Origin: an uncultured bacterium
Lineage (GTDB): Bacteria; Bacillota; Clostridia; Oscillospirales; CAG-272
Assembly (NCBI GenBank): GCA_945920215.1
Contig: CAMEJM010000002.1
Coordinates: forward strand, 82,760-140,460
Direction: 5' to 3'
DNA length: 57,701 nucleotides
Part shown: positions 40,180 to 45,650 of the stretch, one piece after another
Numbering within the stretch: position 1 is the first letter of the stretch
Layout: each line of letters begins with the position of its first letter
Notes under the pieces: model-generated
What the model saw: the letters and a program-made list of their open reading frames with translations, nothing else
What the model was told of the DNA's origin: nothing
Databases searched by the model: none
Translations under genes and position numbers: made by a program

Positions 40180-40208
40180 TTGCAATCATAAACAAGAAGT
40201 GATATACT
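40180..40208 (+). promoter_or_regulatory. Promoter of the InlB-like repeat operon
   Basis: TTGCAA (40180-40185), 17-base spacer, TATACT (40203-40208); the first gene starts 52 bases later with AGGAGG upstream. Confidence 0.8.
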
Positions 40209-40260
40209 GAACTCAATAAGGATATGCGCCGCGCACAGTTGTGCGCACAGGAGGATTGCC

Positions 40261-41178
40261 ATGCCGCAGTTGCAATACATTGTTGACGGGGAAGTATATA
40301 AAACCGAGGAACACGAGGCGGTCGATACTCTGATACCGCCCGAAGCACCGGAAAAAGAGGGCTATAATTTTGTCCGCTGGGCGGATCTCCCTCCCACCAT
40401 GCCGGACGGGGATTTACAGATTCAGGCGCTTTATGAGCCGGATTCTTTCACGCTGACGGAAGTGGTGGACGACGAGGTGTATGAAACCCGCCTGTTGCAG
40501 AGCGGTACCGATCTGACCGCGCTGCCGCTGCCGGAGAAAAAAGGCTACACCTTCTCCGGCTGGATGAAAAAATACAAGAAAATGCCCAAGTCCAATCTGA
40601 CTCTGCGCGGCTCCTTTAAGGTCAATCGGTATAAGCTGACTTTTGAAATCGACGGCATGACCTTTGAGCGCACGGTGGAATACGGCGCGCCGCTGGACAG
40701 AATCGCGGTGCCGGAGCGCGACCATTACACCTTCAGCGGCTGGGGAAACATTCCCGCCGTGATGCCGGACCACGACCTGCATTTTTCCGGCAGTTTCCGG
40801 ATCAATACATATACCCTGACTTACCTGATTGACGGCGCGCTTTACCGCACCGAACGCATGGCTTTCGGAGAACCCGTCAAGCCTGCCTCCGTCGAAACAA
40901 AGGAGGGATATGTGTTCAGCGGCTGGCGCGGACTTCCCAAAACCATGCCGGAGCAGGACGTGACCATCGAGGGAAAATACTATCGGAGAAAAACCAAAGT
41001 GACTTTCCTGGTGGACGGCGAGAAATTCGCATGGCTGAGCCTGACTGCCGGAGAAAAGATGACAGTGCCGGAGGAGCCGCATAAGGACGGCTTTGTGTTC
41101 CGCGGCTGGCGCGACCTGCCCGAAACCGTTCCCGCCTATGACATTGAAACGGAAGCCGAATTCACGGCTGCCGAGTGA
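40261..41178 (+). CDS. Protein of five tandem InlB-like repeats, no signal peptide
   Basis: 305 residues made wholly of five repeats of about 61 residues (1-60, 61-121, 122-181, 182-242, 243-305). Each reads: aromatic, then strand L-T-x-x-x-D-G, polar strand, G-x-x, P-E-K/R-E-G-Y-x-F-S-G-W, then P-x-x-M-P-x-x-D-L/V-x-x-x-G-x-F/Y. This is the beta-grasp InlB/Listeria-Bacteroides-like repeat in a variant with an MPxxD ending. Such repeats are normally on secreted proteins, but here the N-terminus (MPQLQYIVDGEVYKTEEHEA) is the first repeat itself, and no lipobox, membrane span or sorting motif exists. AGGAGG precedes ATG 40261. Eleven bases separate it from the next, related gene. Confidence 0.88.
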   Translation: MPQLQYIVDGEVYKTEEHEAVDTLIPPEAPEKEGYNFVRWADLPPTMPDGDLQIQALYEPDSFTLTEVVDDEVYETRLLQSGTDLTALPLPEKKGYTFSGWMKKYKKMPKSNLTLRGSFKVNRYKLTFEIDGMTFERTVEYGAPLDRIAVPERDHYTFSGWGNIPAVMPDHDLHFSGSFRINTYTLTYLIDGALYRTERMAFGEPVKPASVETKEGYVFSGWRGLPKTMPEQDVTIEGKYYRRKTKVTFLVDGEKFAWLSLTAGEKMTVPEEPHKDGFVFRGWRDLPETVPAYDIETEAEFTAAE

Positions 41179-41189
41179 GGGAACGGAAT

Positions 41190-44100
41190 ATGTCTGTGAA
41201 TCAGAAAACGCCGACGCGTTACCGCTTGACCTATGCCATTGACGGGCAACCCTGCTATACCGAAATGGTGGAAAAGGGCGCACGCCTCGTCAACCATCCG
41301 AAGCCCGAAAAACAGTACCACACGTTCAGCGGTTGGGGAGAGGTGCCGGCACGTATGCCCGCGCATGATCTGACGCTGGACGGGCATTTTACGCCGGTGC
41401 GCTACCGCGCCCTGTTCGCCAGCGGCGTTGTGCAGTACGCCATCAAGGAGCAGTGCGCCATGACTCCCCTGACCCCGCCGGACGATCCGGTGCGAGAGGG
41501 GTATGTGTTCCGGGGGTGGCGGAATTTCACCGGGGTCATGCCGGGAGAAAACACGACCTTTGAAGCCATATTTGAACCCTGTGCCTATCGCCTGACCTAT
41601 TTGGTGGACGGGACATTCCGTTTTACTTTCACCGTGCCGTACGGCGAGGTGCCGCCGCGCCTTGAGGAGCCGAGAAAAAAGAACCATGTGTTCAGCGGTT
41701 GGTCGGAAATCCCCGCCGTCATGCCCGCCGAGGACGTGCTTGTGACGGGTAATTTTACAGAAAAACTGTACAAGCTGACGCGTATGGTGGACGGCGAAGT
41801 CTTCTGTGAGGAGATGCTCCCCTGCGGCGCCGCGGTGGATAAAAAACTGAAGCCCATCCGCGAGGGATATTATTTCAGCGGCTGGCGCAAACTGCCCGAG
41901 ACCATGCCGCCCAAGGACGTCACGGTAGCGGCGTCGATGTACCCGGCGCGTTACCGCGCGGATTTTTATATCGACGGGGAACTGTTCCATTCCCGTTACA
42001 TTCCTTTCGGAGAACGTGTGACGGCGCCCACCCCGCCTGAGAAGCAGGGAATGCTGTTCGGCGGTTGGAGCAATCTGCCCGAGACCATGCCCGCGCGGGA
42101 TATCCGTGTCGAGGGCGTGTACAACGCAAAGCTGTACACCCTGTGCTTCGTGGCGGACGGCACGGAGATCATGCGCGCGGAGTTGGCGGAGGGTGCGCCG
42201 ATTCCCAAGGAAGTGGAGGTGCCATCCAAGGAGGGCTTCGCTTTCTGCGGTTGGGACCAATCCCCCTCCGCTATGCCCGCCTCCGATCTGACGCTTCACG
42301 CGGTGTATGCGACGGTACGTTCGCATTATGTGTTCTATATCGACGGCGAGAAATACGAGGAGCTGGATCCGGGGGAAGACGGACAGATCACCATGCCGGC
42401 GCCGCCCTCCTATGAGGGACACCGCTTCAGCGGCTGGAGCGCCATGAAGCTTGACCCCATGACGGGGGTGACGACCTTTGAGGGAAGTTACGAGGACGCT
42501 CAGCGCTATACCCTGACGTTTTTGGTTCGCGGGGAGGCGTATGAAACCCGAAAGTTGGTCGCCGGAGAAGCGATAATACCGCCGGAGGTGGAATCCGGCG
42601 AGGAATATGAGTTTTACGGGTGGGGCGAATGCCCGGCTGTCATGCCGCCGTATGATCTGACGGTGGAGGCGCTCGTGCGCACGCTGCGACACCGCCTGAA
42701 CTTCGTCATTGACGGCGAGGTCGCCTATACGATGTCCCTTGACACGGGAGATGAAATCTCCTGCCCCGCGGTGGCGCAGCGCAAGGGCTTCACCTTCGGC
42801 GGCTGGCAGGACGTGCCGGCAACCATGCCCGCGCGCGATCTGACGGTATACGCTTCGTATATCCGCAATCAGCATACGGCGACTTATGTGGTGGGAGGCG
42901 AAATTCTGCTGACCGGCTCCGTCGGCTGCGGGGAACCCCTGGTGCCGCCGGAAGTACCGCAGATGAAAGAAGAGAAGTATTCCTTTGTCGGTTGGATTCC
43001 CGAAACCGACGTGATGCCGGACGAGGATCTGGTGATCACGGGCGTTTATTCCGATACGCATTGCCTTCTGGAAATATACGTGGACGGTATGCTGTTCGAG
43101 AAGAAAATCGTCAAGGCAGGGGAGGAGCTCGACCTGCCGGAAATCGAGGTGGGAGAGGGAGAGCATTTTGAATGGCAGGATGTTCCGCCGTGCGCGCCGG
43201 AGGGAAAACTGGAGGTTCACGGCGGCAGAGTCGCCAACCTGTATCAGGTCACCTATTGCGCAGGCGACACCGTGCTCGGCACCGAGGAATATCGCTTCGG
43301 CGAAACGGTGCGCTGCCGCGTTGCCGCTCCCTCGGACGGAAACGGCGTGTTTCTCGGCTGGCAGGGTTTGGAGCAGACGATGCCCGCGCACGATCTGACG
43401 GTGCAGGCGCATTTTGAAAGCCGTACCTTCCGCGTGACGTTCGTTTTGGACGACAGTGTTTTACAGGAAAGCGAAGTGGCGGTCGGCGCCCGTATTCCGA
43501 CCCCGCAGGTGCCGGCGCGCGATGGCTACTCCTTTGACGGCTGGCGCAATTATGTGGAAATCATGCCGGCGTATAATTTCACCGCGTATGGCTCTTACAG
43601 CCGCAAAAAATATACGCTGACTTACCTTTGCGGGGGGGATACGCTGGCAAGTGCGGAGTATTCTTTCGGAGAACCGATTGCGCCGATTGCCGCGCCCGAG
43701 CGCGAGGGGGAGACCTTTGACGGTTGGGAAGGCTTGACCGACACCATGCCGGCGCACGACCTGACGGTCAGCGCGCATTACGGAGGCAGGGAATTCCGCA
43801 TTTCGTATCTGGTGGATGGAGAACTGCTTTGCGCCGCCCGCGTGGAAATGGGCAGCCGCATAGTTCCGGAAACGGCGCCGGAGCGCGAGGGACTGGTGTT
43901 CGCGGGCTGGGACAATTTGCCGGAATTCATGCCCGATCACGAGGTCATTGCCACCGCGCGGTATGAACACAGAACCTACGCCGTGACCTATAAGGTCAAC
44001 GAAATCATCTGGCGTATCGACCGCTACGACGCGGGCGATACCGTCACGCCGCCCACTCCGCCCGAACACCCGCATGAGACCTTTGTCCGCTGGCGCAACT

Positions 44101-45650
44101 TTTCCCCCGTCATGCCCGAATATGATTTTACCTGCGTGGCGGAGTACAGCGAAACGTTCGGGCGCTATACCTTCATTCTGGACGGGGAGGTCGTCTCGAC
44201 CGGCAAGTGCCGGAAAGGGGAGACGATCACGCCTCCCATACCCCCTCACCGCAGCGGTTTCGCCTTTGCGGGGTGGAACGGCTTTACCGGATATATGCCG
44301 GCGGGAGACGTCACCTATATCGGCAATTATGTGAGCGACACCTTTAAGGTGCGTTATATGCTGGACGGGGAGCTGTATCACGAGGACGGCTACAACGAAA
44401 AAGAAAAGGTGGTGCCGGTGGAGGCGCCCGAACGCGATGGCTTTACCTTTTCCGGCTGGCACGGCGTGCCGAAGCGTATGCCCGCCGACGATGTGACCGT
44501 CACAGGCAAAATGATACCGCAATCCTTCCGCCTGATATATCGCACCGATGAAGCGGTGCATTTCGACGACATGGTGCCATGCGGCACAAAGCTCTGTAAA
44601 GTCGCGGCGCCGGAAGTCCACGGCATGACCTTCAACGGCTGGATCGACGAGCCGCAGACCATGCCCCCGCACGATGTGACTGTGGTCGGGATGTACGCCC
44701 ATTCCGAGCCGCTGTACAAGACGGTGGTACCCGGAGGAGAGGGAGACGCGAGCGGCAATGTTTCGGTCAGAAAAGGACCCGCCTCGGCGCCGGCGGCGCT
44801 CGCCGTGGTGAGCGGCAGTTATCTGCGCCTGATCATCGACAATATCTGCTATCCCGTGATCGGCGCTGCGGATTGTGTGCGTAATTCCCGCGTGACGGAT
44901 CAGGAGAAGCTTTCCGCTGCGCTTCATCGCACCTACCGCAAGTATGCACTGCCGCATAAGAAAATCAGGGTGCTTTTCAATGACAGCGCACTGTGTGACG
45001 CGGCGTTCGAAGCTCCCCATGCCCCCGCCACCGATCTCACTCGGACGGCACAGGCATTGTTCGGGGAGGAGCCGGAGAAAAAGCAGTTGTATCACAGCTT
45101 TGTGATGAGCGAGAGCGGCAACGGCACCGACCGCGTCTGGGTTTCCGCATTGGAGGAAGAACGCAACGAAGCCTTTGCCGCCGCATTCCGACGCTGCGGC
45201 GTGACGGTAAGCGATTGCTGCACGCTGATGGGCGCTTTGGCGGAATATCTGCAATTCAACCGCCATATGGAACGCGGGAAAAATCAGATGTGTCTGTTTT
45301 ATCTGCCGACCACCGTGTTGGGCGCGCTTCTGCTGGACGGTCAGGTGGTGTATATGAATCAGAACCGTATGCCGTACCGCGACAGGAGTTTTGACGTGGC
45401 TGCCGAAACCGAACGGCTGGTGCGCGCGATGTGTGCCTATGCCGCGCAGAAACATACAACGGAGCCGCTCGGATTGGTTGCCATCGGCGGGATTGACCGC
45501 ACGCACGTCCGGAACGCCGAGAAACTGATGCCGCATCTCCTGCGCCGCCTTGCAAGAGAAGAAAAGACCGGGCTGTTTTCAGCCAAACGGTATCGCCGCC
45601 CGAGCATGGAAACTCTCGGCTTTGCCGCCACCGAAAACAGGACCAAGTGA
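41190..45650 (+). CDS. Giant 19-repeat InlB-like protein with PilM/actin-like C-terminal domain
   Basis: 1486 residues. By hand, residues about 10-1170 divide into 19 repeats of about 61 residues of the same kind as in the preceding gene (consensus Y-x-L-T-Y-x-V-D-G-E ... G-E-x-V-x-P-P ... R-E-G-x-x-F-S-G-W ... M-P-A-x-D-L/V-T-V-x-A-x-Y). Repeat 11 is the most decayed: it lacks the GW and MP motifs. A Gly/Ser linker (1170-1208) leads to a C-terminal domain of about 280 residues with no repeats. Its order of elements (a LRLIIDN strand; helix; KKIRVLFND; a second half with MCLFYLPTTVLGALLLDGQVVYMNQNRMPYRD and a final LVAIGGIDRTHVRNAEKL) resembles PilM-type ASKHA domains. No signal peptide or membrane span. 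Possible cytoplasmic scaffold; function unknown. Confidence 0.85.
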   Translation: MSVNQKTPTRYRLTYAIDGQPCYTEMVEKGARLVNHPKPEKQYHTFSGWGEVPARMPAHDLTLDGHFTPVRYRALFASGVVQYAIKEQCAMTPLTPPDDPVREGYVFRGWRNFTGVMPGENTTFEAIFEPCAYRLTYLVDGTFRFTFTVPYGEVPPRLEEPRKKNHVFSGWSEIPAVMPAEDVLVTGNFTEKLYKLTRMVDGEVFCEEMLPCGAAVDKKLKPIREGYYFSGWRKLPETMPPKDVTVAASMYPARYRADFYIDGELFHSRYIPFGERVTAPTPPEKQGMLFGGWSNLPETMPARDIRVEGVYNAKLYTLCFVADGTEIMRAELAEGAPIPKEVEVPSKEGFAFCGWDQSPSAMPASDLTLHAVYATVRSHYVFYIDGEKYEELDPGEDGQITMPAPPSYEGHRFSGWSAMKLDPMTGVTTFEGSYEDAQRYTLTFLVRGEAYETRKLVAGEAIIPPEVESGEEYEFYGWGECPAVMPPYDLTVEALVRTLRHRLNFVIDGEVAYTMSLDTGDEISCPAVAQRKGFTFGGWQDVPATMPARDLTVYASYIRNQHTATYVVGGEILLTGSVGCGEPLVPPEVPQMKEEKYSFVGWIPETDVMPDEDLVITGVYSDTHCLLEIYVDGMLFEKKIVKAGEELDLPEIEVGEGEHFEWQDVPPCAPEGKLEVHGGRVANLYQVTYCAGDTVLGTEEYRFGETVRCRVAAPSDGNGVFLGWQGLEQTMPAHDLTVQAHFESRTFRVTFVLDDSVLQESEVAVGARIPTPQVPARDGYSFDGWRNYVEIMPAYNFTAYGSYSRKKYTLTYLCGGDTLASAEYSFGEPIAPIAAPEREGETFDGWEGLTDTMPAHDLTVSAHYGGREFRISYLVDGELLCAARVEMGSRIVPETAPEREGLVFAGWDNLPEFMPDHEVIATARYEHRTYAVTYKVNEIIWRIDRYDAGDTVTPPTPPEHPHETFVRWRNFSPVMPEYDFTCVAEYSETFGRYTFILDGEVVSTGKCRKGETITPPIPPHRSGFAFAGWNGFTGYMPAGDVTYIGNYVSDTFKVRYMLDGELYHEDGYNEKEKVVPVEAPERDGFTFSGWHGVPKRMPADDVTVTGKMIPQSFRLIYRTDEAVHFDDMVPCGTKLCKVAAPEVHGMTFNGWIDEPQTMPPHDVTVVGMYAHSEPLYKTVVPGGEGDASGNVSVRKGPASAPAALAVVSGSYLRLIIDNICYPVIGAADCVRNSRVTDQEKLSAALHRTYRKYALPHKKIRVLFNDSALCDAAFEAPHAPATDLTRTAQALFGEEPEKKQLYHSFVMSESGNGTDRVWVSALEEERNEAFAAAFRRCGVTVSDCCTLMGALAEYLQFNRHMERGKNQMCLFYLPTTVLGALLLDGQVVYMNQNRMPYRDRSFDVAAETERLVRAMCAYAAQKHTTEPLGLVAIGGIDRTHVRNAEKLMPHLLRRLAREEKTGLFSAKRYRRPSMETLGFAATENRTK

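Follow-up and report, generated by a model that had tools for sequence, protein, structure and literature searches.

A gene pair combining InlB-type repeats with a PilM-like head in an uncultured bacterium of the Oscillospirales

The gene pair and its repeats

The window analyzed in this study is a stretch of 57,701 nucleotides from an uncultured bacterium of the CAG-272 lineage of the Oscillospirales (GenBank assembly GCA_945920215.1, contig CAMEJM010000002.1, positions 82,760 to 140,460). It contains two adjacent genes, a small one that encodes only InlB-type repeats and a large one that encodes a longer array of the same repeats followed by a PilM-like, actin-fold head (Table 1). The parts belong to known families. 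In the literature searched, which was covered by titles and the beginnings of abstracts and has most subscription papers and preprints outside its scope, no description of InlB-type repeats joined to PilM was found, and an earlier sequence-only reading of this DNA likewise named no such protein. The arrangement, found in some uncultured Clostridia of the gut in whose genomes pilus assembly genes were not detected, suggests that a pilus part has been reused to anchor or organize something inside the cell.

The open reading frames (ORFs) confirm the 11-nt gap between the genes that the sequence-only reading had given, and an alternative in-frame GTG at 41175 would give the large protein five more residues. 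The single promoter of that reading agrees with one promoter-like site on the plus strand upstream of the pair and none in the intergenic gap; the scan returned 2 sites over both strands vs 0.8 expected, which makes this weak evidence. The large gene has a weaker GAGGG ahead of its ATG. Because GGAGG lies shortly 5' of the small-gene start in the window and in all nine relatives read, a longer N terminus with a missed signal peptide is unlikely.

Table 1. Positions of the gene pair and its elements within the window
Feature	Positions	Strand	Basis
Promoter-like site, TTGCAA-17-TATACT, TG preceding the second hexamer, 5' of the pair	40180..40208	+	Consensus match alone
Shine-Dalgarno AGGAGG, 6 nt ahead of the small-gene ATG	40249..40254	+	Sequence
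Small protein, 305 residues, solely 5 InlB-type repeats	40261..41178	+	Repeat model, Pfam; orthologs 42-60% identical
Small-protein repeat 2, ortholog signature repeat (SGWxKKYKKMPxSNLTxxGxF in most)	40444..40620	+	Ortholog comparison
Large protein, 1486 residues, 19 repeats then PilM-like head	41190..45650	+	ORF, repeat model
19-repeat array, residues 10-1171	41217..44702	+	Best matches colinear 19/19 with L032 and L014
Large-protein repeat 4, residues 193-251, most conserved repeat	41766..41942	+	63% mean identity across subclades
Linker of ~29 residues, array to head, model confidence lower	44703..44789	+	Structure model
PilM-like (ASKHA/actin-fold) head, residues ~1201-1486	44790..45647	+	Structure model, fold match, profile comparison

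A hidden Markov model built on the window's own repeats recovers 5 and 19 repeats of approximately 61 residues, as had been counted before, with the lowest two of the 24 scoring 13.8 and 17.6 bits. In this model, the first repeat, earlier placed at the initiator Met, begins at residue 4 in the small protein and at residue 10 in the large one. The Pfam family Flg_new (PF09479, Listeria-Bacteroides repeat) scores 110 bits on the small protein and 254.7 bits on the large protein (cut-off, 27), and the solved InlB B repeat (PDB 2y5p) is matched at E = 8.4e-6 by a profile that combines the small protein with its orthologs. The pair has the repeat sequence and period of InlB B-repeat proteins. Unlike internalin-type surface proteins, however, it has an actin-fold head and no visible signal peptide or LPxTG, and Pfam gives no LRR or GW match in the two proteins. 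A groove by strand 2 of the InlB B repeat is a proposed binding site (PMC8900821). A Pfam match of the large protein to the glycogen-binding AMPK1_CBM (36.5 bits summed, no single stretch passing) was taken as a sum over β repeats. PADLOC gave no match, and PHROGs gave none for the small protein or the head and one weak family of unknown function for the large protein. Eight plasmid records match the small protein, six of them Listeria, but all are below 60% identity, and a plasmid link was set aside.

The array varies in length between subclades, with 19, 19, 19, 26, 32, and five times 23 repeats in the large proteins and 5 or 6 in the small ones. All 19 large-protein repeats of the window have their best match at the corresponding position of both L032 and L014, whereas most best matches to L015, L016, and L017 are not at the same position. 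Small-protein repeats 2 to 5, but not repeat 1, are colinear with L032 and L014, and all five are colinear with L015. In L015 (5253-11117), three to four near-identical adjacent repeats were seen by eye, which suggests a recent tandem duplication in that species. Across subclades (9 pairs from 5 of the 10 large proteins), repeat 4 has a mean identity of 63%, vs 34% (standard deviation, 5) for random internal pairs; repeats 1, 3, and 5 have 48, 46, and 43%, repeats 2 and 6 have 31 and 37%, and the last seven have 37-45%. On these identities, we read the array as probably consisting of specific ends and a spacer middle, with a small excess at the C-terminal end. In five comparisons, all within the L017 subclade, the ratio of nonsynonymous to synonymous substitution rates (dN/dS, Nei-Gojobori) is 0.083-0.159 for the small gene, 0.154-0.252 for the repeats, and 0.159-0.269 for the head.

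The repeat type itself is common: the small-protein profile has a match somewhere in 39 of 45 genus genomes. A second long array, in L171 (1-4182; G043 contig 27), has at least 20 repeats, with 12 cysteines in 1145 repeat residues. The contig truncates its 5' end. It also has a linker rich in Glu and Pro and a tail rich in Lys, but no PilM head, and it is not colinear with the window array. In L176 (2405-7234; G029), repeats of this family follow an N terminus that by eye resembles a zinc ribbon, in a frame of 1610 residues. Beyond the genus, a scan for the repeats gave at least 596 stretches, and a great many exported-type proteins that contain these repeats were found in L045-L116, which are mostly Bacteroidales and in many cases ruminant-derived according to the record titles; some have a C terminus that by eye resembles Bacteroidota sorting domains.

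Fold and ancestry of the PilM-like head

The non-repeat C terminus of the large protein comprises 315 residues (1172-1486), of which approximately 1201-1486 form the modeled domain; the sequence-only reading had described a non-repeat domain of 280 residues. The model of the head matches the PilM-type actin fold over approximately 260 residues (PDB 2ych, 3jc8, and 5eou). The PilM-type ASKHA assignment is upheld; an unrelated fold did not appear, and kinship in sequence can now be added to likeness in fold.

The window head has no match to PF11104 or TIGR01175 at E ≤ 1 and is below their curated cut-offs, three orthologs have no such match in Pfam at E ≤ 5, and searching PDB sequences with only the head gave nothing below E = 0.2. 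A profile of 10 heads (the L014 head, cut by a contig end, was left out) was searched against 396 sampled genomes of the order and found eight positive (E = 8.2e-4 to 9.4e-15), of which two belong to the genus and six do not. The six matches outside the genus are frames of 297-528 residues that by eye all directly adjoin a PilC-type gene. A PilB-type gene is seen in five of the six stretches, with none in the 9 kb of L188 (by eye), and pilin-like, prepilin-peptidase, and PilN/PilO-like genes surround several (by eye). In L187, NCBIfam confirmed PilC and PilB but had nothing useful for the prepilin peptidase or for the genes at the PilN and PilO positions. Profile-profile alignment (hhalign) of the heads with these six PilMs gives E = 3e-19 over 246 columns at 14% identity. 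PF11104 is matched at E ≤ 1 by five of the six (best, 2.9e-8), and their profile matches the solved PilMs 3jc8 (E = 1.1e-10) and 2ych (E = 1.5e-4).

In a tree of 21 rows (midpoint root for drawing only), the heads form one group at 83/83 and remain together with the order PilMs, and the proteins at the PilM position in pilus operons of the genus itself, represented by five of six (that of L140 was left out of the alignment), separate at 100/100 on a long branch, which can mislead. Direct hhalign between the head and these proteins is weak (E = 0.046), and descent from the genus's own pilus PilM is unsupported. By sequence comparison, the head is PilM-derived, and nothing points to the present pilus PilM of the genus as its source. 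The PilM-position proteins of these operons (L135-L140, six genus genomes) are long and very divergent, in frames of 433-620 residues with an acidic insert (by eye).

Outside the window's own subclade, head identity to the window falls to 17-20%; the GG near the C terminus is invariant in all 10 heads. At the presumed phosphate loops, placed by general motif positions, acidic residues are absent from both loops in the heads of the window and L032; in L015, L016, and the L017 subclade, at least one loop contains D or E, but there is no D-x-G (all by eye). From these loops, the head would be expected to need no nucleotide.

The head shares with the type IV pilus PilM (PF11104) its fold, a sequence kinship through the order-level PilMs, and a presumed cytoplasmic place. 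It differs in being fused behind 19-32 InlB-type repeats, with no pilus operon, PilB, or PilC detected and no PilN partner known. PilM-PilN fusions (L185, L188, and L190, by eye) and the cytoplasmic domain of GspL/EpsL also differ, since the present head is C-terminal behind repeats and no membrane span follows. With FtsA, the head has in common the actin-like fold with the extra subdomain that PilM shares, and docking onto the tail of a membrane protein is the analogy (PMC7613929); it differs in that the best FtsA rows score below the best PilM rows, SHS2_FTSA is unmatched, and there is no known division link. A phage origin was rejected, the head being unmatched in 50,697 phage records. Some small-protein N termini resemble the PilN-position N terminus of L186, but no weight was given to this because the stretch equally forms the normal first strand of a repeat.

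Distribution of the pair and of pilus genes in the genus

The genus set comprises 45 genomes of at least 80% completeness; G033 (59% complete) is an additional bearer outside it, with the head cut. The pair, whole or cut by contig ends, occurs in 11 other genomes of the genus, and its occurrence is therefore not a matter of chance; these bearers include the records JAFQJX010000024.1 (goat cecum) and JAGCXA010000059.1 (yak rumen). Within the set, the head is found in 10 genomes and a small-protein ortholog above 500 bits in 11, i.e., the 10 head bearers and G021, in which the contig ends within the large gene. In G063, the small gene and the head are on two separate contigs. The gap between the small and large genes is 4-26 nt in all 10 pairs, and an earlier Met in L015 would overlap the genes. 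The conserved pairing proposed from the window holds in the related genomes that have either gene. Absence from relatives, which the sequence-only reading had counted against itself, is observed in part: the unit is missing from 34 of the 45 genomes, and a family-wide search found the head in 10 of 331 genomes, all of this genus (1 of 63 genera), with none in approximately 286 sampled genomes of the other genera. The pair was, however, never seen broken up where contigs permit.

PilC (PF00482) was found in 6 of the 45 genomes, none of which has the head, and in 0 of 10 head-bearing genomes. PilB (PF00437) is above the cut-off in all six PilC-positive genomes and in 0 of 12 pair-bearing genomes, six of which give just short matches below the cut-off. 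Because the genomes are drafts, single absences may be gaps. The overlap between pair and pilus is zero (11 and 6 among 45) with a chance probability of 0.165, which is not significant; this shows independence from the pilus and not exclusion, and mutual exclusion as a biological rule is not claimed. PilM (PF11104) is matched at E ≤ 0.01 in 16 of the 45 genomes, 4 of them above the cut-off; by eye, the gene matched in the genome of the window is MreB-like. SHS2_FTSA (PF02491, FtsA) is matched in 0 of 45 genomes and is also unmatched in G000 (8 of 14 controls were positive), which leaves unsupported the idea that the head replaces FtsA in pair-bearing species only.

Cellular location, role, and gene surroundings

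InlB-type repeats are normally on secreted surface proteins, and PilM-family domains act inside the cell. No hydrophobic N terminus was found in either protein by hydropathy, without a dedicated signal-peptide predictor (highest 12-residue mean in the first 70 residues, 0.15 small and 0.18 large), no membrane span was found (highest 19-residue mean anywhere, 0.56 and 1.47), and no LPxTG, NPQTN-like, or lipobox motif was found by pattern, all of which bears out the lack of export signals noted earlier. The same holds for 10 small and 10 large orthologs, of which the L014 large protein is cut C-terminally. For comparison, 27 of 75 repeat proteins from other loci lack a hydrophobic N terminus above the threshold, but 10 of these 27 start within 3 bases of the locus end. 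The large-protein repeats have 4.5-16.4 cysteines per 1000 residues vs 1.1 (39 of 35,589) in the 75 repeat proteins, and six presumed cytosolic proteins of the window have 18. The test is mixed, however: same-genus repeat proteins that look exported by eye (L172, L177, and L178, of which L177 is two frames, one cut at the stretch end) span 0 to 8.5 cysteines per 1000, and the small proteins contain just 0, 1, or 4 cysteines. Set against these same-genus proteins, cysteine content speaks for the cytoplasm only moderately. A cytoplasmic location of both proteins is favored because export signals are missing and the head is kin to PilM.

The cytoplasmic scaffold or filament organizer of the sequence-only reading remains a putative role. 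What we propose, and regard as an even call, is a two-gene cytoplasmic tether made from a captured type IV pilus part. PilM and FtsA bind the short tail of a bitopic membrane protein in an inter-subdomain cleft (PMC7613929), and PilM is described as forming, via PilN, a ring on the cytoplasmic face of the membrane (PMC6916266). Both proteins of the pair would remain in the cytoplasm, where the head would act as PilM and FtsA heads do, probably without ATP: using the cleft between its subdomains, it would bind itself or a short peptide from the cytoplasmic part of a membrane protein. Binding would place the bead string at the membrane, from which it would extend into the cytoplasm as a multivalent arm. 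The conserved repeats near the start (1, 3, and 4) and towards the end would hold specific partners, probably including the small protein, and the middle would serve as a spacer whose length differs by subclade. A further reading, which we hold to be somewhat less likely than not, makes the pair a new class of bacterial cytoplasmic scaffold. In it, a head derived from PilM, possibly a pseudo-ATPase, would dock at the membrane or assemble with itself and would carry 19-32 surface-type modules, in numbers that differ by subclade, with a dedicated short bead partner; the pilus part would have been reused after, or independently of, the pilus.

Among the alternatives, the one we take most seriously, while considering it unlikely, is an adhesin, exported or on the surface, that would get out of the cell by a leaderless route or lysis and not by a classical signal, with the head as a cytoplasmic stop or export handle. 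In other taxa, related repeats belong to exported-type proteins, and lipoprotein-like repeat proteins exist in the same genus (by eye); against this stand the orthologs without any export or sorting signal, the intracellular action of PilM-family domains, and the undetected PilB and PilC. Next in rank, and also improbable, is a self-polymerizing organizer like FtsA, in which the heads would form membrane filaments or rings that display the bead strings, e.g., to control division or shape. FtsA, however, is lacking throughout the genus and independently of the pair, the best PilM rows outscore FtsA, and no division gene was recognized by eye beside the pair.

We give little credence to the pair as a remnant or regulator of a type IV pilus, still working together with components of the pilus. 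Such a role would fit the kinship of the head with the PilM family, but neither PilC in the head-bearing genomes nor PilB above the cut-off in the pair-bearing ones was detected, and the six pilus-bearing genomes of the genus have a different, long PilM-position protein in the operon. A chance fusion that is decaying without selection is hardly credible: the low head identity outside the window subclade and the variable repeat number would be expected of it, whereas nine complete large frames of 1486-2304 codons, dN/dS values of 0.08-0.27 within one subclade, colinear repeats inside the window subclade, and the retention of both genes as a pair all speak against it. The pair places a domain of PilM, a core protein of type IV pilus assembly, in genomes without a detected pilus machine and fused to Listeria-type surface repeats. 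If the protein is cytoplasmic, InlB-type beads would be general binding modules able to work in cells, and the unit would offer a natural minimal case for what PilM does alone (dock, dimerize, or form a ring) without PilB, PilC, and pilins.

The genes around the pair, assigned by eye, include no pilB, pilC, pilN, or pilO. A dGTPase lies upstream of the pair in the window and likewise in L014 and L032; the L017 subclade instead has a HAD-type phosphatase, and L015 has an oxidoreductase. The neighbors also include galM. As the contexts vary, only the pair itself is constant.
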